NCBI GenBank assembly: GCA_002841355.1
Contig: PHFB01000002.1
Span: 141,816-205,815, forward strand
From: Actinobacteria bacterium HGW-Actinobacteria-1
GTDB lineage: Bacteria; Actinomycetota; Coriobacteriia; Anaerosomatales; Anaerosomataceae
DNA: 64,000 nucleotides
Reading direction: 5' to 3'
Shown here piece after piece: positions 6,812 through 32,065 of this stretch. The translations under genes and the position numbers were made by a program. Position 1 is the stretch's first letter. Every line of letters begins with the position of its first letter. The notes beneath the pieces were generated by a model that made no database searches, was not told the origin of the DNA, and worked only from the letters and a program-made list of their open reading frames with translations.

Positions 6812-7993
6812 GTGGCGCAGTACACAGAGTACCTGGATCAGCGTCCGAACATGGACCAGCTCACAGCGATGCGTAAGGAGCAACTCCGTCGCATCAGTGA
6901 GCTGCGCGGCGGTCGCGACGTGATCGTCATCGCGGCCGACTTGCGGGCCACCGGCAATGGCATCAATCCCTCCCTTGAGTACGGTGACATACTTCCCGTT
7001 GCCGACCTGCTCAAGGACTTGAGTGGTCACTCCGCAGACGTCATCCTCGAGACGCCTGGTGGCTCGGGTGAGGTGGCTGAGGAGATTGTACGCATGTTGC
7101 ACGACAAGTACGCGGACGTCGCGTTCATCGTTCCTGGGTGGGCGAAGAGCGCTGGCACCATCATGGTCATGGCAGGCGACGAGATTCTGATGGGCCCCGC
7201 CTCCGCGCTCGGGCCGATCGATGCGCAAATCGGTTGGCAGGGCAAGGTATTCTCCGCGGACGCACTCATTGAGGGGCTGGACAAGATCAAGCGGGAGGTC
7301 GTGGACACAGGCACCCTCAACAAGGCCTACATCCCGATGCTTTCGAATCTCTCGCCCGGAGAACTGCAGCACGCTGAGGACGCCCTTCAGTTCGCCAAAG
7401 ACCTCGTCCGTGATTGGCTCGTTCGGTACAAGTTCAAGGACTGGAATACCCATGCGAGCACGGGGGCTCCAGTCACTGACGAAGAGCGCAACCGGAGGGC
7501 TCGAGAGGTCGCGGACCAACTGTGTGACCAGAGACGTTGGAAGACGCACGGGCGCTCCATACGCATCGAGGATCTGAAGAAGATGCGGGTCAGAATCACG
7601 GACTACACCGAGCAGCCGGATCTCGCTGACGCGATAGATCGCTACGCCGCCCTGCTGCGGATGACGTTCGACTCGAACATCTTCAAGGTGCTTGAGGACG
7701 CAACTCATCAGGTGTATAGGGCTGCAGCGAATCCCGCGATTCAGCCAGGAAGCCCAGCACCCGAGCAGGCTGAGAAGGCGGATATCAACGTCGAATGTGG
7801 GAAGTGCCACTCAAAGCATGTTGTTCAGATTGACCTTCGCCCGGGGCTGCCACTGCAGGACGGGCGTATCGCCTATCCGGCCTCGAACCTGCTCAAGTGC
7901 CCCCGGTGCGGGAATGATATAGACTTGACCGAGGTACGACGCCAGATTGAGCTCATGACCAAGAAGTCGGTCGTCCCCAGGGGAGACGAATGA
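6812..7993 (+). CDS. Cassette 5a: ClpP-like serine protease (SDH protease family) with C-terminal zinc ribbon
   Basis: A protein of 393 residues from GTG, preceded by GTAGGGGGGATT. The crotonase/ClpP fold of the SDPP/SDH_protease family is seen in LETPGGSGEVAEEIVRML, then GWAKSAGTIMVMAGDEILMGP with the likely nucleophile Ser113, then SALGPIDAQI. The C-terminus adds a CxxC pair (ECGKC) and a second one (CPRCGN), a zinc ribbon. There is no signal peptide, so it should act in the cytosol. The next gene overlaps its stop by 4 bp (ATGA), implying a translationally coupled partner. Cassette-borne proteases of this type may be effectors of immune systems; that is inference. Confidence 0.75.
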   Translation: MAQYTEYLDQRPNMDQLTAMRKEQLRRISELRGGRDVIVIAADLRATGNGINPSLEYGDILPVADLLKDLSGHSADVILETPGGSGEVAEEIVRMLHDKYADVAFIVPGWAKSAGTIMVMAGDEILMGPASALGPIDAQIGWQGKVFSADALIEGLDKIKREVVDTGTLNKAYIPMLSNLSPGELQHAEDALQFAKDLVRDWLVRYKFKDWNTHASTGAPVTDEERNRRAREVADQLCDQRRWKTHGRSIRIEDLKKMRVRITDYTEQPDLADAIDRYAALLRMTFDSNIFKVLEDATHQVYRAAANPAIQPGSPAPEQAEKADINVECGKCHSKHVVQIDLRPGLPLQDGRIAYPASNLLKCPRCGNDIDLTEVRRQIELMTKKSVVPRGDE

Positions 7994-8184
7994 TGAATCG
8001 CTTCGAGATCATCTTCCAGCACATGGGTGAGGTCACGGCAGTCGCCGTACAGGATGGCCGCGATGATGCTGACATGGCTGAGATTCTAACGATTCGTGAA
8101 GAATCGGATGCCATCCAGGCAATCATGCGCGTGTCGCGCGAAATCTCGCAGCAGACACATTGCGGCTGCTTCACCTCTTCCTAG
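7990..8184 (+). CDS. Cassette 5b: small protein coupled to the protease
   Basis: A protein of 64 residues overlapping the protease stop by 4 bp (ATGATGA), with GGGGAGACGA as ribosome site. It is acidic in the middle (DGRDDADMAEILTIREESDAIQ) and ends with two cysteines (HCGCFTSS). No family recognised. The coupling suggests a regulator, inhibitor or adaptor of the protease. Confidence 0.55.
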   Translation: MMNRFEIIFQHMGEVTAVAVQDGRDDADMAEILTIREESDAIQAIMRVSREISQQTHCGCFTSS

Positions 8185-8202
8185 CCCGGTCCGTCGCTAG
8201 TT

Positions 8203-8281
8203 GTTAGGCGACCCAGATGGGGCTAACCCGCGGATCAACCCGACTCGCTCCGCTCGCGGGTTATCCGCAAACACGTTAGGC
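8203..8281 (+). other. attC site 5 (61 bp, 8221-8281) preceded by an orphan core
   Basis: R'' GGCTAAC (8221-8227, one base off) pairs with R' GTTAGGC (8275-8281). The arms GCGGATCAACCCG and CGGGTTATCCGC pair with one extra C. It is shorter than the others and lacks the TAGACT loop. A further GTTAGGC at 8203-8209 has no clear R'' partner and may mark the end of a decayed attC or a 70-bp empty cassette. Confidence 0.75.
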
Positions 8282-8343
8282 AGACAGAGTCCGAGCTGGC
8301 TTCAGTGAATCCGGTACCGTTCGCACGGCATTAGGAGGGTGTC

Positions 8344-8529
8344 TTGGCCAAGAACACCGGCAGCGGCAAACGAATCGGATTGCTGCGCAACCGCTTTCAG
8401 AAGTTCAACCCGTTGTCGGGGCTGTGGGACAAGTACGACCGAGGAGGGAACTACGTCGGAACCAAGAAGACCGGCGGTCGGTTCAAGAGCATCGTGGGGC
8501 TGTTCGGACGCAACCCGCGCCGCCCGTGA
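8344..8529 (+). CDS. Cassette 6: small basic protein
   Basis: A protein of 61 residues from TTG, with a strong AGGAGGG 4 bp upstream. It is very rich in Lys, Arg and Gly: a basic N-terminus, then FNPLSGLWDKYD, GGNYVGTKKTGGRFKSI and an Arg-rich tail. Small basic proteins of similar layout (NP-x-TG-x-W ... TG-x-F) are common cassette products of unknown role. No membrane segment. Confidence 0.6.
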   Translation: MAKNTGSGKRIGLLRNRFQKFNPLSGLWDKYDRGGNYVGTKKTGGRFKSIVGLFGRNPRRP

Positions 8530-8585
8530 TTGTGTTTGGGCATAGCAAGGCGCGCCAGTTGGGATCTTGACCTTTCGCCCGGATT

Positions 8586-8747
8586 TCACGGGCTCATCAG
8601 CGGGTTCTCCCCGGAGGCCAGGAATAGCCTCTTTGCAACCGACGACGCAGGCCTTTCTGCGTAGCTTGTCGTACGGTTCGTTACGCGTGAAATCGTCATA
8701 CGCGTTACCTCCACAACTAGGTCGAGTACTACTCCGATGGCCAAACC
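8586..8747 (-). CDS. Possible reverse-oriented small membrane protein
   Basis: Between the basic-protein cassette and the next attC about 350 bp lack a plus-strand gene with normal codon use. The minus strand is open here. Its upper part encodes a hydrophobic stretch (FVFLALPTAAFWPQVL, then LGLAIGVVLDLVVEV) followed by a basic tail that ends at 8586. Good start codons and ribosome sites are lacking, and the true start may lie up to 8830. It may be a real reverse cassette gene or a chance frame. Confidence 0.25.
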   Translation of the reverse strand, partial: GLAIGVVLDLVVEVTRMTISRVTNRTTSYAERPASSVAKRLFLASGENPLMSP

Positions 8748-8886
8748 CAATAACACTTGCGGCCAGAACGCCGCGGTGGGAAGAGCGAGAAACACGAAGC
8801 CTGCACTCGTCAGTTGCAGAAGGCTATTCCTGCAAGACGCTGAAGTCAGCGTTTCGGCGCAGTCATTGTACCAACTTCGAGCTGCT

Positions 8887-8969
8887 GCCCAACAAAGGCA
8901 TCGAGCGGACGGCGTCAGCGCTAGACTGATGCAGGGCGTGGGCCGCCGCTCATGCCTAGAACGTTTGCA
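8887..8969 (+). other. attC site 6 (83 bp)
   Basis: R'' GCCCAAC (8887-8893) fits consensus; R' is GTTTGCA (8963-8969), degenerate. The arms AGGCATCGAGCGG and CCGCTCATGCCT pair with one extra C. The loop has TAGACT at 8922-8927. Confidence 0.8.
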
Positions 8970-8980
8970 GAGAGGGACGA

Positions 8981-9235
8981 GTGTGGGGGGATCCGCTTCT
9001 GGGGCCAGGTGATGACCCACGGCTCAACGCATGCATCAACTACGGGCTCGATCAGTGGTACGTCTACGCTACTGGCTACCGTGCATCTGCAGAAATCATC
9101 CTCGACCGCGTTCGGAAGGCTTCGGGTGGTGGCGACGGCTGGAGGATCGCTTCCCTCTTTGTCGGCCTGAGTGCACTAATGGCGGTTTTCTACTTCCCCA
9201 GCAGAACGATTACTGGCCCAGGGCTGTTCTACTGA
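8981..9235 (+). CDS. Cassette 7: small hypothetical protein with C-terminal hydrophobic segment
   Basis: A protein of 84 residues from GTG, with AGAGAGGG 5 bp upstream in the attC exit. The N-terminal part (DPRLNACINYGLDQWYVYATGYRASAEIILDRV) resembles the start of larger cassette-associated proteins. Then it diverges to a hydrophobic helix (IASLFVGLSALMAVFYF) and stops. It may be a complete small membrane protein or a truncated or frameshifted remnant. Confidence 0.45.
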   Translation: MWGDPLLGPGDDPRLNACINYGLDQWYVYATGYRASAEIILDRVRKASGGGDGWRIASLFVGLSALMAVFYFPSRTITGPGLFY

Positions 9236-9375
9236 GTGCGGCTCTGCAGCCATTCGCCCGGTTGGGGGTTGGGCGCGCGTACGTGGCCCAACGTCGCGGG
9301 ATCAGAAGTGCGGTTGGCGTGGCACTTGCGATTTGGATTGGCGGGGCGCTGGTCGGGGTGGTCGTTTCTGCAGCA

Positions 9376-9444
9376 CACTAATGAGACTGCTGGGAGTGCG
9401 CACCTTGGACTACACTCGGTAAGCATGCGCAGTCGATGTTTGGG
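9376..9444 (+). other. Possible degenerate attC site 7
   Basis: CACTAAT (9376-9382) and GTTTGGG (9438-9444) stand where the core boxes would be. GACTGC and GCAGTC can pair inside. The central CTACACTCGGTAAG is close to CTAGACTCGTTGAG of attC site 1. It ends 8 bp before the next start codon. Weak but consistent with a decayed site. Confidence 0.4.
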
Positions 9445-9451
9445 GGATTCG

Positions 9452-10222
9452 ATGGCGGTCTACCAGGACAAGGCACTAGAACGAGTCTCGAAAGGCCTTC
9501 GCAAATACAAGAGCGTAGCTCAGAAGGCGCGGGCTAATGGGGCCCAAGAGAGCGACACGCGAATGATCGTGTCGTCGATAGTGAGCGATGCTCTTGGATG
9601 GGACGCGTTCGATCATCTGACCGGCGAGTTTCGCATCAAGGGCAACTACGCCGACTTCGTCATCCGTAAGGATGGCAAGCACTTCATCATCATCGAGGTG
9701 AAGTCCGTCTCGACCAACCTGAACGACAAGCACCTCTACCAAGCAGTCTCATATGCGGCGAATCAGGGCGTCGAGTGGGTCATTCTCACAAACGGAGCGG
9801 AGTGGAGGCTCTACCGCGTCCTCTTCAACAAGCCCGTTGAGCACGAATTGGTGTTCGAAGTGAGCTTGCTCGACGAGACAATGAAGCCCAAGGACAAGGC
9901 TGAGCTCATGTACCTGCTGACTCCCGACGCGCAGCGAAAAGATGAGCTGGAGACGTTCTATCAGCGCAAGCGAGCTCTTGCAGGCTCCAATATCGCGAAG
10001 CTGCTTCTGAGCGAGTCTGTACTGACTCGCCTGCGCGCGGAGATCAAGGCTGATTCGGGCAATCGGGTCGCGCTTGATGAGCTCGGCCAGATTCTCGTTG
10101 ACTGCGTCATCCGACCCGAGGCCCAGGGAGATCCGGTCGATAAGCAGCTCAAACGGGTGCAGAAGGCGGCTAAGGCTGCGCCGCGGAAGCAAGCGGCGGC
10201 GTGTGCTCCGGTTGGCGAGTGA
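9452..10222 (+). CDS. PD-(D/E)XK nuclease-like protein, type I restriction HsdR_N-like
   Basis: A protein of 256 residues; the ATG is preceded by TGGGGGATT. The N-terminal 125 residues match the HsdR N-terminal nuclease: Glu33 in a helix, Asp68 in NYADFVI, Glu82-Val-Lys84 in IIIEVKSV, then YQAVSYAANQGVEWVILTNGAEWRLYRV. Full HsdR proteins continue with helicase domains; here only a helical tail ending in a Lys/Arg/Ala-rich stretch is present. No HsdM or HsdS gene is near. It is a stand-alone nuclease-like protein of accessory origin, substrate unknown. Confidence 0.75.
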   Translation: MAVYQDKALERVSKGLRKYKSVAQKARANGAQESDTRMIVSSIVSDALGWDAFDHLTGEFRIKGNYADFVIRKDGKHFIIIEVKSVSTNLNDKHLYQAVSYAANQGVEWVILTNGAEWRLYRVLFNKPVEHELVFEVSLLDETMKPKDKAELMYLLTPDAQRKDELETFYQRKRALAGSNIAKLLLSESVLTRLRAEIKADSGNRVALDELGQILVDCVIRPEAQGDPVDKQLKRVQKAAKAAPRKQAAACAPVGE

Positions 10223-24306: not shown

Positions 24307-25185
24307 CTACTTCGCCTTGCGGCCGAGCCACGGCACCAGCACCGGCGTTGTGCGCTTGTACTCCTCGTAGTCGTCCTGGCCGCCCCAGCGCTCCTCGGCG
24401 CTCTTCTCCAGCAGAGGCACGCCGCTGACTCTCGTGAGCAGCAGATACACGAAGACCGGCGAGATGAGGGTCGCGTACCGCCAGCCGCCAAGGACGGGGA
24501 AGGCGATGATCGCGACGCCGGTCCAGAGCACGATCTCGCCGAAGTAGTTGGGGTGGCGGGAAAGCGCCCACAGTCCCGAGCGGATGAAGCGCCCCTTGTT
24601 CGCGGGGTCGGCTCGGAACTGGCCCTTCTGGCGATCGGCCGTCGCCTCAAGCCCGAAGCCGATCAGCCACACGCACAGGCCGACAACAGCGAACGCATCC
24701 AGCCCGCCTGCACCGCCGGTAACGGCGCCGAGAGCGGCCGCCAGCGTGAGGCTCACCCACAGTCCCTGCAGCGTCCACGTCATGAGGAAGTTGGGGAGCG
24801 ATTGCTTGATCGAGTCGAAGCGCACGTCTTTGCCCGCGCGGCGCACGCGACGGAACAGGAACGTACCGAGGCGCCCTGCCCACACGACTACGAGCGCCAG
24901 CAGCAGCAACGAGCGTGCCCCCACAGCTCCGCTCGCGAACACGGCGAACGCCATCACCGAGACGTACGTCACCGCTCCGGTTATGTCGAAGTAGCGCTCG
25001 GTGTGCATGAGAAACGACGGCACGAACACGAGCCACTGCACGAGAAACGCGATACCCACCGCGACCGCAAAGACCGGCGCGCCGCCGATCATGGCGCCTC
25101 CCTGGGAGCCAGCCCACGCGATGGCGGCTCCGATCACGACGGCTGCTACCGTGCCCGCTATGGCGGTTGCTCGCTTGTCGGCCAT
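24307..25185 (-). CDS. DUF1295 (steroid 5-alpha-reductase-like) membrane protein
   Basis: A protein of 292 residues; the ATG at 25185 follows AGAAGGAG. About seven membrane helices. The C-terminal family signature is clear: DRQKGQFRADPANKGRFI, then GLWALSRHPNYFGEIVLWTGV and a terminal Trp-Gly-Gln-Asp-Asp-Tyr-Glu-Glu-Tyr block. Members are NADPH-dependent reductases or lipid-modifying enzymes by homology; the substrate is unknown. Confidence 0.85.
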   Translation of the reverse strand: MADKRATAIAGTVAAVVIGAAIAWAGSQGGAMIGGAPVFAVAVGIAFLVQWLVFVPSFLMHTERYFDITGAVTYVSVMAFAVFASGAVGARSLLLLALVVVWAGRLGTFLFRRVRRAGKDVRFDSIKQSLPNFLMTWTLQGLWVSLTLAAALGAVTGGAGGLDAFAVVGLCVWLIGFGLEATADRQKGQFRADPANKGRFIRSGLWALSRHPNYFGEIVLWTGVAIIAFPVLGGWRYATLISPVFVYLLLTRVSGVPLLEKSAEERWGGQDDYEEYKRTTPVLVPWLGRKAK

Positions 25186-25291
25186 GAGTACTCCTTCTGG
25201 GTCGTGCGCCGTCTTGCGCAAGGTTAGCGACGGTCGGTGGATGGAAATCTCTACTTATGAAGCGTCCTGTCGTTCCGGAATGGAGTGGCGC

Positions 25292-27474: not shown

Positions 27475-27900
27475 CTAGCCGCCGAAAACGCCCGTAACTG
27501 CGCAGGTTCCGAACGCGAGCAGGCCGATGATGAGCGAGGCCAGGTAGAAGAAGAGCCCGCCCTTCCCGAAGCTCCACATGCGCACGTTGCCCTTGCTCTT
27601 GCCCACGAAGAACATGACGGGGAAGACGACGAAGAGCACGACCTGGAAGAGCCCCAGAATGCTGAAGTACGCCGCGAACGCGTCTCCGATGACCGTTGCG
27701 AGCAGGCCGCTCACCATCCCGGTTACGGTGTAGGCGATGATCGGCGTGACGAGCCCGAGCATGAGGAACCCGATATCCGTCTTAGGCTTGGGCACAGGAT
27801 TCGGCGCTGGCGATGTCATCGGTGCCGGCGGCGCCATGGGCTGCTCGGGAACCGGTGTTTCCGGGGTGCTTCCGTTCTCGGGAAGATTGGTCTCGTCCAT
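27475..27900 (-). CDS. Membrane protein with Pro-rich N-terminus
   Basis: A protein of 141 residues; the ATG at 27900 follows TGGAGGGGG. Residues 1-40 are Pro-rich and disordered (PEQPMAPPAPMTSPAPNPVP). Three or four membrane helices follow. Last gene of the minus-strand radical SAM operon, one base from the Lgt-like stop. No family recognised. Confidence 0.65.
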   Translation of the reverse strand: MDETNLPENGSTPETPVPEQPMAPPAPMTSPAPNPVPKPKTDIGFLMLGLVTPIIAYTVTGMVSGLLATVIGDAFAAYFSILGLFQVVLFVVFPVMFFVGKSKGNVRMWSFGKGGLFFYLASLIIGLLAFGTCAVTGVFGG

Positions 27901-27901
27901 G

Positions 27902-28675
27902 TTAGGAACCCCCTCCAGCAGAACTGGCTGCTTTCCTGTATACACCCTTGAGCACGTATGCAATCACGACTCCGAGTGACACAACCTGATAATACGTCAG
28001 TCCCATCATCCATACAGGATTGACTCTGATGAACTCGATGAGGAACCGCCAGCCGAAGTACGTGATCATGAAGAGGCGGAAGAGCTCGCCCGGCGCGAAG
28101 CGATCCTTCATGAGCTGCGCGAACACGAACAGGCCGAGAACGAACGCCGCCTCGTACAGCTGCGTCGGGTTGCGGAGCACGCCGTCGCCGAAATTCGTGC
28201 CCCACGGGAGCGACGTCGGGACGCCGTAGCAGCACCCCGCGAAGAAGCAGCCGATGCGCCCGAAGAAGATGCCGGCGGTGAGCGACGGAACGAGGTAGTT
28301 TCCGAGGCGCTGCTTGATGCCGAGCTTGCGCTTGACCAGCCAGACGGCAAGCACGCCGCCGATGATGCCGCCCACGATCGTGCGTCCCGAGAGCCAGACC
28401 GCCGGTTGCAGCGGGTCGGCGAGTATCTGCCGATAGCTCACGATCCACATCGGCAGCTTGGAACCGAGCACGCCGCCAACGACTGCCGCGAGCGCGATGT
28501 AGAGGCCGTTGTTCCCGACCGCCTTGTCCTTGGTGTTGTAGCGGTAGAGCAGTACCGCCACCACCAGGCCGAGCGTCACGAAGAACGAGTACGTGGCCAC
28601 AGGCTGTCCACCGATCGTGAACAGAACGGGTCGCACACCCCAGAGGTCGGGGTGCGAATGGAGGTCCGGGATCAC
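27902..28675 (-). CDS. Lgt-family diacylglyceryl transferase paralogue with altered active site
   Basis: A protein of 257 residues; GTG at 28675 overlaps the upstream stop (GTGA). It has the seven-helix Lgt layout with GRIGCFFAGCCYG and FGWRFLIEFIRV. The canonical Lgt signature GRIGNF has Asn where Cys stands here, and the region that carries the essential HGG histidine reads SGRTIVGGIIGG, with Val in its place. These changes suggest a diverged lipid transferase rather than housekeeping Lgt. It sits in an operon with a radical SAM enzyme, a methyltransferase and DUF4395. Confidence 0.8.
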   Translation of the reverse strand: MIPDLHSHPDLWGVRPVLFTIGGQPVATYSFFVTLGLVVAVLLYRYNTKDKAVGNNGLYIALAAVVGGVLGSKLPMWIVSYRQILADPLQPAVWLSGRTIVGGIIGGVLAVWLVKRKLGIKQRLGNYLVPSLTAGIFFGRIGCFFAGCCYGVPTSLPWGTNFGDGVLRNPTQLYEAAFVLGLFVFAQLMKDRFAPGELFRLFMITYFGWRFLIEFIRVNPVWMMGLTYYQVVSLGVVIAYVLKGVYRKAASSAGGGS

Positions 28676-29112
28676 CGCTTCCCCGTGATCGCGCAGCAGC
28701 CGCCACCCTTGGTGAGGCACCCGTAGAGCTTGTATGCCGGGCATGCGCCGAGGGCGCTCGCGGTCTTGAGGGCGGCAAACGCGATCACGAAGTAGATCGC
28801 GAGCGGGCTGTCGCGCAGCACGAGTGACAGGCAGATGAGCGCCAGAAGTGCGCCAAGGCCGTGGGCGACTCGCATCGCCTTCACGTCGAGCACGACGTCT
28901 TTCGAGGGGATGAACCGTCCGAACGTCTGCGTGTAGATCCACACCATTGGCGCGCGGTGGACTTTGAGCGCCCACGACAGCGCCATGATCACGAACACCG
29001 CACCGAGAAGATACGCCCTGGCGCCTTCAACGAAGAGCGCCCCCCACACCATGAGCGCCACGCCGTAGCGACAGAACAGGAACGCGTTGCGCTGGATCGT
29101 CACGTTCTCCAC
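28672..29112 (-). CDS. DUF4395-family membrane protein
   Basis: A protein of 146 residues; GTG at 29112 starts 2 bp after the ICMT-like stop. It has four hydrophobic helices and the block VDLNV-like NVTIQRNAFLFCRYGVA, then YTQTFGRFIPSKDVVLDVKAMRVAHG. The C-terminus has a Cys/Gly motif (GACPAYKLYGCLTKGGGCCAI). DUF4395 is of unknown function. Position between a methyltransferase and an Lgt paralogue suggests a lipid role. Confidence 0.75.
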   Translation of the reverse strand: MENVTIQRNAFLFCRYGVALMVWGALFVEGARAYLLGAVFVIMALSWALKVHRAPMVWIYTQTFGRFIPSKDVVLDVKAMRVAHGLGALLALICLSLVLRDSPLAIYFVIAFAALKTASALGACPAYKLYGCLTKGGGCCAITGKR

Positions 29113-29114
29113 GA

Positions 29115-29747
29115 CTACACCCCTACTCTCGGGAAGAACATCCCGGTCTTGGCCCGGTACCGTACGAACTGCTCGCCGAACGCCTCGAGCAAGAGCGCAT
29201 CTTCCTTCTTGCCCCGGACGTACATCATCGGGACGAACACGCTGAACGTGAGCACGAGCGACAACACGTTTGAGTAGACCATCGAGCCACCCACGCACAT
29301 CCAGATGAGCGAAGCATACAGCGGATGGCGCACGATGGCGTACGGACCGGTGGTGGCAAGCGTATGGCCCTCGTAGATCTTGATCTGGTTGGCCCACCGC
29401 GACTTGAGAACCACTCGGCCCCACACGTTGAACGCCGCGCCGATGACGATCACCAGGAGTCCGACGATGACCATCACCTCGCGCGCGGGTCCGGTCACTA
29501 CAAAGACGACCAGCTGCAGCTTCAGCACGATGTAGTACAGGACGAAGAACGCGGTCATGCTGCCGGTTTCCACGAAGCTGCGGTCGCTCTTCTCCACCTG
29601 CTTGCTCTGGTGGTGGTATGCGCGGAAATCCGCAACGACTGCGGCACCCACCAGTAGGAACGCGAGGAACGTCACCACGTTCGCCGCGATCGCTAACGGC
29701 GGCTGCGACAGCAGCGGTGCGTCCTTGAGCGTGTCGAGCAGGTTCAC
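29115..29747 (-). CDS. ICMT-like membrane methyltransferase
   Basis: A protein of 210 residues with five membrane helices. The family signature is GHTLATTGPYAIVRHPLYASLIWMCVG, then a charged region and FGEQFVRYRAKTGMFFP. The isoprenylcysteine carboxyl methyltransferase/PEMT superfamily uses S-adenosylmethionine to methylate lipids or prenyl groups. The start overlaps the radical SAM stop by 4 bp, so the two are coupled. Confidence 0.82.
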   Translation of the reverse strand: MNLLDTLKDAPLLSQPPLAIAANVVTFLAFLLVGAAVVADFRAYHHQSKQVEKSDRSFVETGSMTAFFVLYYIVLKLQLVVFVVTGPAREVMVIVGLLVIVIGAAFNVWGRVVLKSRWANQIKIYEGHTLATTGPYAIVRHPLYASLIWMCVGGSMVYSNVLSLVLTFSVFVPMMYVRGKKEDALLLEAFGEQFVRYRAKTGMFFPRVGV

Positions 29748-31111
29748 GTCTGGCTCCGGTGCAGCATGTTATACGCCGAGAAGGGGATGCGCTTCAGGTC
29801 GGGCGTGATGATGTGCACGCACTCCTTCTTGATGGATTTCGCATCGAAGTTGTAGCGGTCGATGAACGACGAGATGGTGATCCGGAAGGTGTTCTTGTCG
29901 ATGAAGTCGGCCCGCTGCCGTGGCGTCCACTTCAGGTACTCCTCGGGCAGGATCGACATGATCTCGTCTTTGAGCCGGAAGCAGTCGCATGCGATGCCTT
30001 TGGTGAGCGACTTCGTGATGGCGTTCTTCACCAGATCCTCGGCACGGAAGTCCATGGTGTTGTCGATGAGCTCCACGTAGTTGTCGAGCTTGATCTTGCT
30101 CGTGACCGGCACGAAGCCGCTGCCGTTGCGCACTGCGTACGTGACGGCGACGCGGTCCACATCGCAGGGCAGCGGCACGATATCCTCGCGCTTGAACTGG
30201 CCGTCGGTCTGCCGCTCGATCTCACGCCGGATGCCCGAGAGGGTCACGCGGTTCTCGATGTTCTCGGCGGGACCGCGCCCGAAGAAGGCGACCGGCTGGA
30301 AGTTCACACCGCGCACGTAGTCGGAGTCCATGCCGAAGCGAACGATGTCGCCGATCTGCGTGTCGTTCACACCTCGGACGATCGTCGCCACCAGGGTGAT
30401 GGGCACCTCGGCGGTCTGAAGGTTCTCGATCGCGGCAAGCTTCGTCTCCAGGAGCTTGCGGCCGCGAAGCTTCTGGTAGACGCGCTCCTTCAGGCCGTCG
30501 AACTGCAGGTACACCTCGAAGCCGGGCGTGAGTGAGCGCAGGAACGTCGCGAAGGCGCGGTCCTCGGCAATGCGCAGACCGTTGGTGTTGAGCATCACGT
30601 ACTTGAAGCGCTTGCGCTTTGCGAGGGTGAGAATCGCTTCGATCTCGGGGTGCGTGGTCGGCTCGCCGCCGCCGATCTGCAGGATCTCCGGCTTGCCGCC
30701 CTCGCGTGCCTTGTAGAAGTCCATCATGCGCTCGATCTGCTCGAGCGGCAGGTGCTCGCCGGTGCCCGAGCTGGCGTAGCAGACGGGGCAGCCCAGGTCG
30801 CACGCGTGGGTGACCTCGATGAGGCCGATGCAGGTGTGCTGCTCGTGATCCGGACAGAGGCCGCAGTCGTACGGGCAACCGTCGCGGATGGGTGTCTCGG
30901 CCTTCGCGCGGTTCCCGGGCTTGTCGTAGCGGTGCTTCTCGAAGAGGTAGCTCGCGTCCTCTTCGAAGAGCGCCAGTTCCTCGCCGTGCGTGCGGCACGT
31001 CTTCAGGAGGTATGCGCTCCCGTTCTTGATGATGATCTTGGCGTCACAGAGTTCCTGGCACGTGCTGCAGAAGCTCCGGGTGGCGTCGTGGAACACGTAG
31101 TCTCTGAGCAT
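29744..31111 (-). CDS. Radical SAM enzyme resembling the MJ0619/Tes family
   Basis: A protein of 455 residues; the ATG at 31111 follows GGAAGCGGG. The S-adenosylmethionine cluster motif is Cys104-x3-Cys108-x2-Cys111 (CDLGCPVCYA). Extra N-terminal cysteines occur at 15, 18, 22, 39 and at 79, 83, 86, 94 (CPYDCGLCPDHEQHTC), and more near residue 388 (ACDCF). This layout, with IEVTHACDLGCPVC and GGGEPTTHPEIE, fits the family of archaeal MJ0619, later shown to be a tetraether lipid synthase (Tes). Bacterial relatives are linked to membrane-spanning lipids. First gene of a lipid-like operon; the exact reaction is inference. Confidence 0.8.
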   Translation of the reverse strand: MLRDYVFHDATRSFCSTCQELCDAKIIIKNGSAYLLKTCRTHGEELALFEEDASYLFEKHRYDKPGNRAKAETPIRDGCPYDCGLCPDHEQHTCIGLIEVTHACDLGCPVCYASSGTGEHLPLEQIERMMDFYKAREGGKPEILQIGGGEPTTHPEIEAILTLAKRKRFKYVMLNTNGLRIAEDRAFATFLRSLTPGFEVYLQFDGLKERVYQKLRGRKLLETKLAAIENLQTAEVPITLVATIVRGVNDTQIGDIVRFGMDSDYVRGVNFQPVAFFGRGPAENIENRVTLSGIRREIERQTDGQFKREDIVPLPCDVDRVAVTYAVRNGSGFVPVTSKIKLDNYVELIDNTMDFRAEDLVKNAITKSLTKGIACDCFRLKDEIMSILPEEYLKWTPRQRADFIDKNTFRITISSFIDRYNFDAKSIKKECVHIITPDLKRIPFSAYNMLHRSQT

Positions 31112-31357
31112 GCAGCCCGCTTCCGAAAGTGGGGTGATTGCGCGCGTTCCAGGCGACGAACTGCCTTCCGCCTCAACAGTAGCGACGATGGTAGGCGCGG
31201 TAAAGCACCGGAGTGCCTGGCGCGCGTGACCTTCTCCGGGAGCCCGATGCAAGCGATACTTGCGGAAGTGACAACGCGACTGGGTAGAGCGCGATTATCC
31301 GCAATGCCGATACTCACTGAGGAATCGCATATCTCAGCGGGCATAAGGAGCGGCTTC

Positions 31358-32065
31358 ATGGACTTCGAGATCGGTCAGCGGTTGGCGGCACGCAGACGGG
31401 CGCGCGGACTTTCGCAGGAAGAGCTCGCCGCCAATCTTGGCGTGAGCAGGCAGGCGGTCTCCAACTGGGAGCGCGCCGAGACCGCACCCGACACCGACAA
31501 CCTCATCGCGCTCGCGAACCTCTACGGCATCACGCTCGACGAGCTCCTCAATCACGAGGCGAATACGATCGCTCCCGACGCAGACGCGCCAAACGGCGCC
31601 GTCCCCGTACCCCGAAACCTCAAGGCAGACGCGATCGCGTATGTTCTCGCGATCGCGCTCTCTGTGGTGTTCTATTACGTGGTCGCCCCGCCGCTCCTGT
31701 TCTCAACTGTCGATGACATCACGGAGATCTTCGGGATCGGAATCTCCCCGGCCATGGCACTCACCTGGATACTTGCCGAGGCGATCTTCGTGCTCGTGCC
31801 GTATCTGCTGCTCGCGCCCATCGCCGCGCTCACGCGCTCGCGCTCGCGCATGTTGTGGGTGGTGCCGGCAGCTGTCCTCGCCCTATCGATCGGCGCGTCT
31901 GTGGCGTGGGCGGCATTCGCCGGTGCACCCGCTATCGAGTTCTCCGGCATCGGCGGGGCACTTGCGTCAAGCGTCGTGATCAAGACGGACGTCATCGCAA
32001 GCATCGCCGGTTGTGCGCTGGCTGCGACAATCGCACGGCGCCGTCGCAGCGACACCAACAACTAA
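31358..32065 (+). CDS. XRE-family regulator with C-terminal membrane helices
   Basis: A protein of 235 residues; the ATG follows AAGGAG. The N-terminus is a helix-turn-helix (QRLAARRRARGLSQEELAANLGVSRQAVSNWERAET). After residue 85 come four hydrophobic helices, so it is a membrane-anchored regulator, of a type that in Firmicutes responds to membrane or nutrient signals. It is divergent from the radical SAM operon, with a 246-bp gap, and could regulate it. Confidence 0.8.
   Translation: MDFEIGQRLAARRRARGLSQEELAANLGVSRQAVSNWERAETAPDTDNLIALANLYGITLDELLNHEANTIAPDADAPNGAVPVPRNLKADAIAYVLAIALSVVFYYVVAPPLLFSTVDDITEIFGIGISPAMALTWILAEAIFVLVPYLLLAPIAALTRSRSRMLWVVPAAVLALSIGASVAWAAFAGAPAIEFSGIGGALASSVVIKTDVIASIAGCALAATIARRRRSDTNN

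Follow-up and report, generated by a model that had tools for sequence, protein, structure and literature searches.

What does a gene cassette do that brings a relative of an archaeal lipid-tail enzyme together with a relative of the bacterial lipoprotein transferase Lgt: does it make a membrane lipid, or does it attach one to a protein? The question is raised by a 64,000-nucleotide stretch of DNA (the window; positions 141,816 to 205,815 of contig PHFB01000002.1) from Actinobacteria bacterium HGW-Actinobacteria-1, an uncultured actinomycetote with a genome of 2.44 Mb (98% complete). Five tightly packed minus-strand genes, with ends read from the sequence, run from window position 31111 to 27475. 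They encode a radical S-adenosylmethionine (SAM) enzyme of the superfamily of Tes, the archaeal enzyme that joins lipid tails (tetraether lipid synthase, GDGT-MAS), followed by an ICMT-like methyltransferase, a DUF4395 protein, an Lgt paralogue, and a small membrane protein, hereafter gene 5. We propose that the cassette is a self-contained protein-lipidation system, in which the Lgt paralogue would lipidate gene 5 with a lipid processed by the radical SAM enzyme, and we put the probability of this reading at roughly 45%. A protein target, in place of a bulk membrane lipid or alongside one, is favoured because the invariant cysteine of gene 5 is lipobox-like.

An initial annotation of the locus had described an operon of overlapping radical SAM, ICMT, DUF4395 and Lgt-paralogue genes that could make membrane-spanning lipids. 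Gene ends and family matches confirmed these overlapping genes, which form a co-conserved unit of lipid type; the description had missed a fifth gene (27900-27475) inside the same interval. The features, in window coordinates, are as follows.

29744..31111, minus strand: Tes-superfamily radical SAM enzyme, 455 residues, ATG start (PF04055, PF23545, 7tol, AlphaFold model, alignment A1)
29115..29747, minus strand: ICMT-like membrane methyltransferase, 210 residues (PF04140, MaICMT 4a2n profile match, alignment)
28672..29112, minus strand: DUF4395 membrane protein, helical, GTG start (PF14340, alignment)
27902..28675, minus strand: Lgt paralogue, 257 residues (PF01790, A2 against 5azb, alignment)
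28367..28387, minus strand: GRTIVGG of the Lgt paralogue, replacing GMSFHGG of E. coli Lgt (His103 to Val101, Met100 to Arg98)
28229..28261, minus strand: GRIGCFFAGCC of the Lgt paralogue (Arg143 kept as R140; Asn146 to C143)
27475..27900, minus strand: gene 5, small membrane protein of 141 residues, proposed lipid acceptor
27502..27513, minus strand: F-G-T-C lipobox-like site of gene 5, Cys133 (alignment A5, shuffle test, charge profile)

The radical SAM and ICMT-like genes overlap by 4 nt, as do the DUF4395 and Lgt-paralogue genes. The ICMT-like and DUF4395 genes are separated by 2 nt, and gene 5 starts 1 nt past the stop of the Lgt paralogue.

Gene 5 and its C-terminal cysteine

With one exception (L059), every readable cassette encodes a small membrane protein, of about 84-175 residues, downstream of Lgt. 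The window copy has no Pfam family above cut-off, BLAST did not link gene 5 proteins across phyla, and in an alignment of 26 sequences (A5) most are 13-28% identical to the window copy. The single invariant residue of this alignment is a cysteine, located 4-14 residues from the C-terminus and accompanied in more than 90% of the sequences by glycine at position -2. All 26 proteins have a cysteine within their last 18 residues (shuffled sequences: mean 5.0, maximum 12), and 24 of the 26 have GxC (mean 0.5, maximum 4; 2000 shuffles). Other small hydrophobic open reading frames in the same flanks were used as a control, from which six gene 5 copies outside the alignment were excluded; the pattern was found in 3 of 52, two of them DUF4395.

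The loop preceding the last helix is net positive in 25 of the 26 proteins, and the tails are neutral. According to the positive-inside rule the last helix would run outward, so that the cysteine is predicted to be extracytoplasmic, at the outer end of this helix, where Lgt works. Gene 5 is present in two copies in Youngiibacter, Peribacteraceae and Moranbacteria. A rearranged cassette in Gracilibacterium (L066:7716-11537, read with code 25, TGA = Gly; Lgt partly masked in the record) holds three copies, ending in FGGC, FGGC and LGGC, around the radical SAM gene. Because its body is divergent, its one fixed residue is modifiable and its copy number varies, gene 5 looks more like a substrate than an enzyme. 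In place of the canonical lipobox, [LVI][ASTVI][GAS]C closing an N-terminal signal, gene 5 mostly has G-[AGSTVLP]-C, usually within G-[AGST]-C, where its C-terminal helix ends.

Several sister operons, built around other Tes-like clades, likewise encode a small membrane protein that has a cysteine at one end of a helix. Examples are LLLLAIC (L101), LLNAAC (L133 and L135), LVGGVC (L140), LLFGAC (L023), and the N-terminal SGLC/IGMC (L134). A broad CTERM sorting system, in which many proteins would carry such a tail, was considered and rejected: the genome itself contains one real tail match, and the other cassette genomes one or a few.

The Lgt paralogue

Membership of the Lgt family is clear from PF01790 (134.8 bits; gathering threshold 24.9), and a family profile (A2) matched E. 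coli Lgt (5azb) at 5.8e-21; only the profile did so, a phmmer search of the PDB with the single sequence giving no match. The paralogue falls below the lgt equivalog TIGR00544 (74.7 vs. 118.9 bits). A canonical Lgt (254 bits, GGMSFHGG/GRITN) was found on another contig of the genome, so that the possibility raised in the initial annotation, that the organism has no other Lgt, does not apply. The suggestion that the Lgt-like protein acts on a new substrate is supported as probable, given a non-housekeeping paralogue beside the canonical enzyme. A third Lgt paralogue of the same genome lies outside the window (L027:6450-7289; GFSLYGG, TGCFLRGCC); no radical SAM partner was seen there, and a large subtilase-like open reading frame (7300-9858) adjoins it.

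The paralogue keeps the equivalents of Y26, G99, R143, G145, G154, Y235, R239, E243 and R246 of E. coli Lgt. In alignment A2, Y29, R140, R210, E214 and R217 are invariant and Y206 nearly so, and the phosphatidylglycerol site was found to be conserved. Two changes picked out by the initial annotation, H103 to Val and N146 to Cys, are both correct for the window copy and both family-wide. The position of H103 is occupied by Val, Leu or Ile in the radical-SAM-associated paralogues with a readable motif, and by His, Tyr, Trp or Phe in none. In the E. coli Lgt structure R143 and R239 handle phosphatidylglycerol, and H103 lies where binding of the lipobox has been proposed (PMC4728403). Position 103 is reported to be Y, W or F and position 146 to be C in some natural Lgts, Leptospira Lgt being an example of the Asn-to-Cys change at 146 (PMC13251419). 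Because the phosphatidylglycerol-handling residues are kept, H103 is at the proposed lipobox site and natural variants exist at 103 and 146, we read the residue changes as altered peptide recognition, not as lost transfer chemistry. The paralogue, with a rebuilt peptide-recognition site, might transfer a glycerolipid onto the cysteine of gene 5.

The Asn-to-Cys change itself, singled out in the initial annotation, was rejected as a hallmark, since GRxGC...GCC is common in Lgt paralogues without a known radical SAM neighbour. A widespread acidobacterial class of such paralogues (L191, L193-L195, L197-L206) has GRxGC and GCC[WYF]G. The distinctive motif is G[KR][ST]I[VLI]GG. It is shared by the Lgt proteins encoded next to Tes-like radical SAM genes of three distinct clades, of which one is that of the cassette, one is acidobacterial/clostridial (about 445-483 bits) and one is actinobacterial. 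No Lgt was found within 1.5 kb of the radical SAM genes of the TrsS and MjTes groups. An exception to the association is an acidobacterial Lgt (L190; G1031:C52:14130-14789) with GGKTIVGA, in whose genome no Tes-like radical SAM protein was found. At a locus of another actinobacterial Tes-like clade, the radical SAM gene is preceded by a gene for a membrane protein (L159:5768-6334) that by eye looks like MauE/DoxX. Among the 69 genomes of the window's order, the cassette-type Lgt scores 340-354 bits and every other Lgt 138 or less.

The radical SAM enzyme, the ICMT-like protein and DUF4395

The radical SAM protein contains Radical_SAM (PF04055, 78 bits) and an HMPTM zinc ribbon (PF23545). It matches PDB entry 7tol, MjTes, at E = 3.5e-73 as a single sequence and 4.8e-101 as a family profile. 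Its AlphaFold model (pLDDT 86.5) superimposes on 7tom with Z 47.4, a root-mean-square deviation of 2.9 over 433 residues and 32% identity; the next-best fold family reaches Z 20.5. All 11 Tes ligands align in the window protein: C9/C12/C33/H36, C73/C77/C80/H83 and C98/C102/C105. In the description of MjTes (PMC9433317) these belong to the rubredoxin iron, the N-terminal auxiliary cluster and the radical-SAM cluster. The ligand cysteines and H89 are invariant in the 25-sequence alignment A1. A cysteine layout like that of "Tes/MJ0619" had been recognized in the initial annotation and is confirmed by these matches, with the correction that Tes and MJ0619 are the same protein. From the predicted Tes fold, at Z 47, and the conserved clusters it is a fair inference that the cassette enzyme performs Tes-like chemistry on lipid tails.

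The enzyme is nevertheless not Tes. Tyr459, strictly conserved in archaeal Tes, is Ile434 in the window protein, and the labile ligand Met439 is Ser414; neither Tyr nor Met occurs at these positions in the aligned cassette rows, where Tyr459 is replaced by Ile or Val. The NCBIfam models place the protein below the cut-offs both for Tes (NF045702, 304.8 vs. 450 bits) and for TrsS (NF045646, 343.5 vs. 490 bits), the latter being its best NCBIfam match; a genuine TrsS from the same order scores 652. In a tree of 98 rows (short search, no bootstrap) the cassette proteins form their own clade, with a support of 96 in the Shimodaira-Hasegawa-like approximate likelihood ratio test (SH-aLRT), apart from MjTes and TrsS. 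MjTes groups with seven acidobacterial rows at SH-aLRT 99. Placement in the Tes superfamily, as the initial annotation anticipated, thus stood, and grouping with MjTes did not. The seven acidobacterial proteins that accompany MjTes are L151-L156 and L158; two of them, L152 and L154, were aligned in detail and keep the HY motif of Tyr459. As judged from this motif, the seven are probably better candidates than the cassette enzyme for the synthesis of branched glycerol dialkyl glycerol tetraethers (brGDGTs).

This evidence bears on an alternative in which the product made or capped is a free membrane lipid, either membrane-spanning or tail-coupled in another way, with gene 5 as accessory subunit, scaffold or sensor and the Lgt-like protein giving diacylglyceryl to a lipid acceptor. 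The predicted MjTes fold and clusters fit such a role, and lipids, too, are methylated by enzymes of ICMT/PEMT type. Bacterial Tes homologues have been proposed for brGDGT synthesis (PMC8941075), and Mss makes membrane-spanning lipids in bacteria (PMC13274423). However, the cassette enzymes form a clade apart from MjTes, without Tyr459 or Met439, and a bulk membrane lipid confined to 3 of 5 genomes of a genus would be unusual. A free-lipid role also leaves unexplained that a lipobox-like cysteine is all that is fixed in gene 5, and that radical SAM genes of three clades are paired with Lgt-type enzymes. The suggestion of the initial annotation that the operon could make membrane-spanning lipids is unsupported as worded, the resemblance being one of superfamily; we regard a free-lipid product as possible, if doubtful, and as second to protein lipidation.

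The fold comparison also bears on the idea that gene 5 is the precursor of a ribosomally synthesized and post-translationally modified peptide, modified directly by the radical SAM enzyme (e.g., by a thioether at the cysteine), with Lgt, ICMT and DUF4395 as tailoring or export factors. A small, divergent, multi-copy partner with one invariant cysteine beside a radical SAM enzyme would suit this, and among the sequence matches Tes is followed by the peptide maturase SkfB. Yet the Z of 47 to Tes is far above that to peptide maturases (about 20), and, with the cysteine predicted on the outer face, a cytosolic Fe-S enzyme would be remote from it. We consider a peptide precursor quite improbable.

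The ICMT-like protein matches PF04140 (8.8e-13; 48.9 vs. a cut-off of 24 bits), and its profile (A4) matches MaICMT (4a2n) at 6.8e-23. The motif RHPLY...N...R...E is invariant (R140, H141, P142, Y144, E182) and the catalytic motifs are intact; the equivalog NF040696 gives 79.4 vs. 160 bits. A gene 2.3 kb beyond the cassette (24307-25221, minus strand) encodes a DUF1295 membrane protein (209 bits), which weakly resembles ICMT-type methyltransferases. Founding members of the ICMT family act on an S-lipidated C-terminal cysteine, which suggests a CAAX-like route: the Lgt paralogue would lipidate the cysteine of gene 5, a protease would cut the tail of 4-14 residues, the ICMT-like protein would methylate the new C-terminal lipid-cysteine and the radical SAM enzyme would tailor the lipid. 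The short tails are in keeping with this, four of them (L038, L041, L050, L060) ending at C+4. In one cassette a gene for an Rce1-like CPBP protease (PF02517; L057:11579-12268) directly follows gene 5, a homologue (cluster C24) lies in the flank of another (L056), and a related idea has been proposed for MYXO-CTERM (PMC11980579). However, most loci have no protease in the cassette, and ICMT uses cytosolic SAM while the cysteine is predicted outside. Such a route is in our view unlikely, although a little less so than a peptide precursor.

DUF4395 scores 24.1 bits against PF14340, just below the cut-off of 24.5, and its relatives score 42-59 bits. C16, C126, C134, C141, C142 and His86 are invariant (numbered in an aligned stretch starting at 29118). 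The model (pLDDT 88.7) gave only generic helix-bundle matches in a fold search, with no Foldseek hit at E <0.001 and VIA as best match at Z 9.8. Its invariant cysteines, together with C143/C148/C149 of the Lgt-like protein, would fit a thiol or metal relay that also involves the cysteine of gene 5, for redox or metal handling and not for lipid transfer. But gene 5 keeps its cysteine in several cassettes that have no DUF4395, and a relay accounts neither for the retained phosphatidylglycerol-binding arginines of Lgt nor for the lipobox-like G-x-C context. Of the explanations weighed here it is the least probable.

Under the favoured protein-lipidation reading, gene 5 would be the acceptor, its last helix passing from the cytoplasm to the outside and ending in a lipobox-like G-x-Cys. 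Apart from its place, at the C-terminal end of a small polytopic protein, the site would resemble the signal of ordinary lipoproteins. At the cytoplasmic face the Tes-like enzyme might carry out radical chemistry on lipid tails (C-C coupling or another modification of sp3 carbons), acting on the donor lipid ahead of transfer or on the lipid once it is bound. Methylation of the lipid or of the lipidated product may be the task of the ICMT-like enzyme, which DUF4395 may assist. As the radical SAM enzyme and the methyltransferase both use cytosolic SAM, topology would place their steps before the transfer. The analysis itself establishes which genes are present, their order and co-occurrence, the invariant cysteine, the residues gained and lost, and the Tes fold as a prediction; we infer the lipidation of the cysteine, the identity of the lipid, the order of the steps and every catalytic assignment. 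The fuller proposal, of a mobile pathway that anchors a dedicated membrane protein to a radical C-C-coupled and possibly membrane-spanning lipid by means of an Lgt paralogue acting at a C-terminal lipobox, would amount to a new class of protein lipidation and would offer a candidate for the lipidation of C-terminal cysteine signals in bacteria; we hold it to be rather unlikely in all its parts together.

Distribution and comparison with known systems

Genome contigs were scanned with the cassette radical SAM protein, yielding 34 loci. The order radical SAM-ICMT-DUF4395-Lgt was found in nearly all loci with enough flanking DNA, and the cassette occurs in at least eight phyla: Actinomycetota, Bacillota, Acidobacteriota, Omnitrophota, Thermodesulfobacteriota, Kiritimatiellota, Hydrogenedentota and Patescibacteria, with the recoded Gracilibacterium among them. 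Holders of the conserved order include Actinomycetota, Clostridium, Alkalibaculum, Youngiibacter, Syntrophomonas, Omnitrophota, Acidobacteriota, Desulfobulbaceae and Peribacteraceae. Since the operon order is kept across phyla, the grouping exceeds what chance would give. In one Patescibacterium DUF4395 and ICMT are a single fused protein. The closest named relatives of the host are the metagenome-assembled genome 1MN72D_65_13 (98% identity of the radical SAM protein) and HGW-Actinobacteria-6 (84%).

Within the window's order the radical SAM enzyme, the cassette-type Lgt and gene 5 share one distribution, each being present in the identical 4 of 69 genomes (G000, G309, G310, G344); a relative of any kind is present in 5 of the 69. 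Together with the order conserved across phyla, this answers in the affirmative the question raised by the initial annotation, whether the genes co-occur across genomes. Identities between phyla are about 50% and presence is patchy, which suggests that the cassette has spread by horizontal transfer. Contamination was ruled out as its source, as the cassette lies on a contig of 479 kb and recurs in two other genomes of the genus and in one genome of the order outside it. A divergent gene (approximately 31355-32065, plus strand), which starts about 250 bases upstream of the cassette, encodes an XRE-type helix-turn-helix regulator with C-terminal membrane helices, which may control the cassette.

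Several observations count against protein lipidation of gene 5. E. coli Lgt cannot do without H103, and its loss from the paralogue may mean that nothing at all is transferred to cysteine. The topology of gene 5 was derived from charge and hydropathy only, and if the cysteine is outside as predicted, the radical SAM and ICMT-like enzymes, which need cytosolic SAM, cannot easily act on the finished lipoprotein. L059 is the sole cassette with readable downstream DNA and no gene 5; there the ICMT and DUF4395 genes are about 1 kb apart, with other sequence between them. The cassettes of Moranbacteria, Pontiellaceae and Hydrogenedentota have no DUF4395. Finally, 3 of the 4 cassette genomes in the order belong to one genus and are not independent cases.

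If the proposal is true, bacteria possess a second, specialized route of cysteine lipidation beside the housekeeping Lgt-LspA pathway. The target of this route would be the C-terminus of a polytopic protein, and the route would be linked to a radical chemistry of lipids that has until now been associated with archaeal tetraethers and the membrane-spanning lipids of bacteria. It would also bear on how C-terminal cysteine sorting signals such as MYXO-CTERM are lipidated. Named cassette genes in isolated strains of Clostridium (C. bowmanii DSM 14206), Alkalibaculum (A. sporogenes) and Youngiibacter (Y. fragilis) make the idea directly testable. Caution is needed in genome searches for the makers of palaeothermometer lipids, as bacterial Tes homologues should not all be taken for brGDGT synthases. 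No publication joining these genes was found in the openly accessible literature, which does not prove that none exists.

The working mode of the cassette may be likened to lipoprotein diacylglyceryl transfer, by analogy: its proteins fall outside the Lgt equivalog, Tes and CTERM sorting. With Lgt the paralogue shares PF01790 and the phosphatidylglycerol site (Y26, R143, Y235, R239, E243, R246). It differs in H103 to V within G[KR][ST]I[VLI]GG, in N146 to Cys, in being additional to a canonical Lgt and in its proposed dedicated C-terminal target. With Tes the radical SAM enzyme shares the full-length predicted fold, the rubredoxin site, the N-terminal auxiliary and radical-SAM ligands, Gln268 and Arg275. 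It differs at the C-terminal cluster (Met439 to Ser, Tyr459 to Ile or Val, CC to EC, PFC to PFS), in cysteines of its own (C316, C377, C431) and in its Lgt, ICMT and DUF4395 partners. TrsS is its nearest NCBIfam family, but the TrsS proteins lie in a different clade of the tree, and none had Lgt as a neighbour. The Mss/Ger pathway likewise uses a radical SAM enzyme to couple lipid tails, whereas no Lgt or target-protein partner was found described in the papers on Mss that were consulted. The ICMT-like protein shares PF04140 and the catalytic RHPxY...E motifs with protein-S-isoprenylcysteine O-methyltransferase (Methanosarcina ICMT, 4a2n), but is below the NF040696 cut-off, and no prenylated partner is known for the cassette.

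The closest published idea concerns MYXO-CTERM and myxosortase, where an Lgt-like lipidation step was proposed and its enzyme not identified (PMC11980579). Like gene 5, MYXO-CTERM is a C-terminal signal with an invariant extracytoplasmic cysteine, but the topology is the reverse: there the cysteine is followed by a helix and a basic C-terminal cluster, and many proteins are targets, whereas in gene 5 the cysteine follows the helix and there is no basic cluster. The cassette, for its part, has 1-3 targets per genome, no protease, and a radical SAM enzyme and ICMT as partners.

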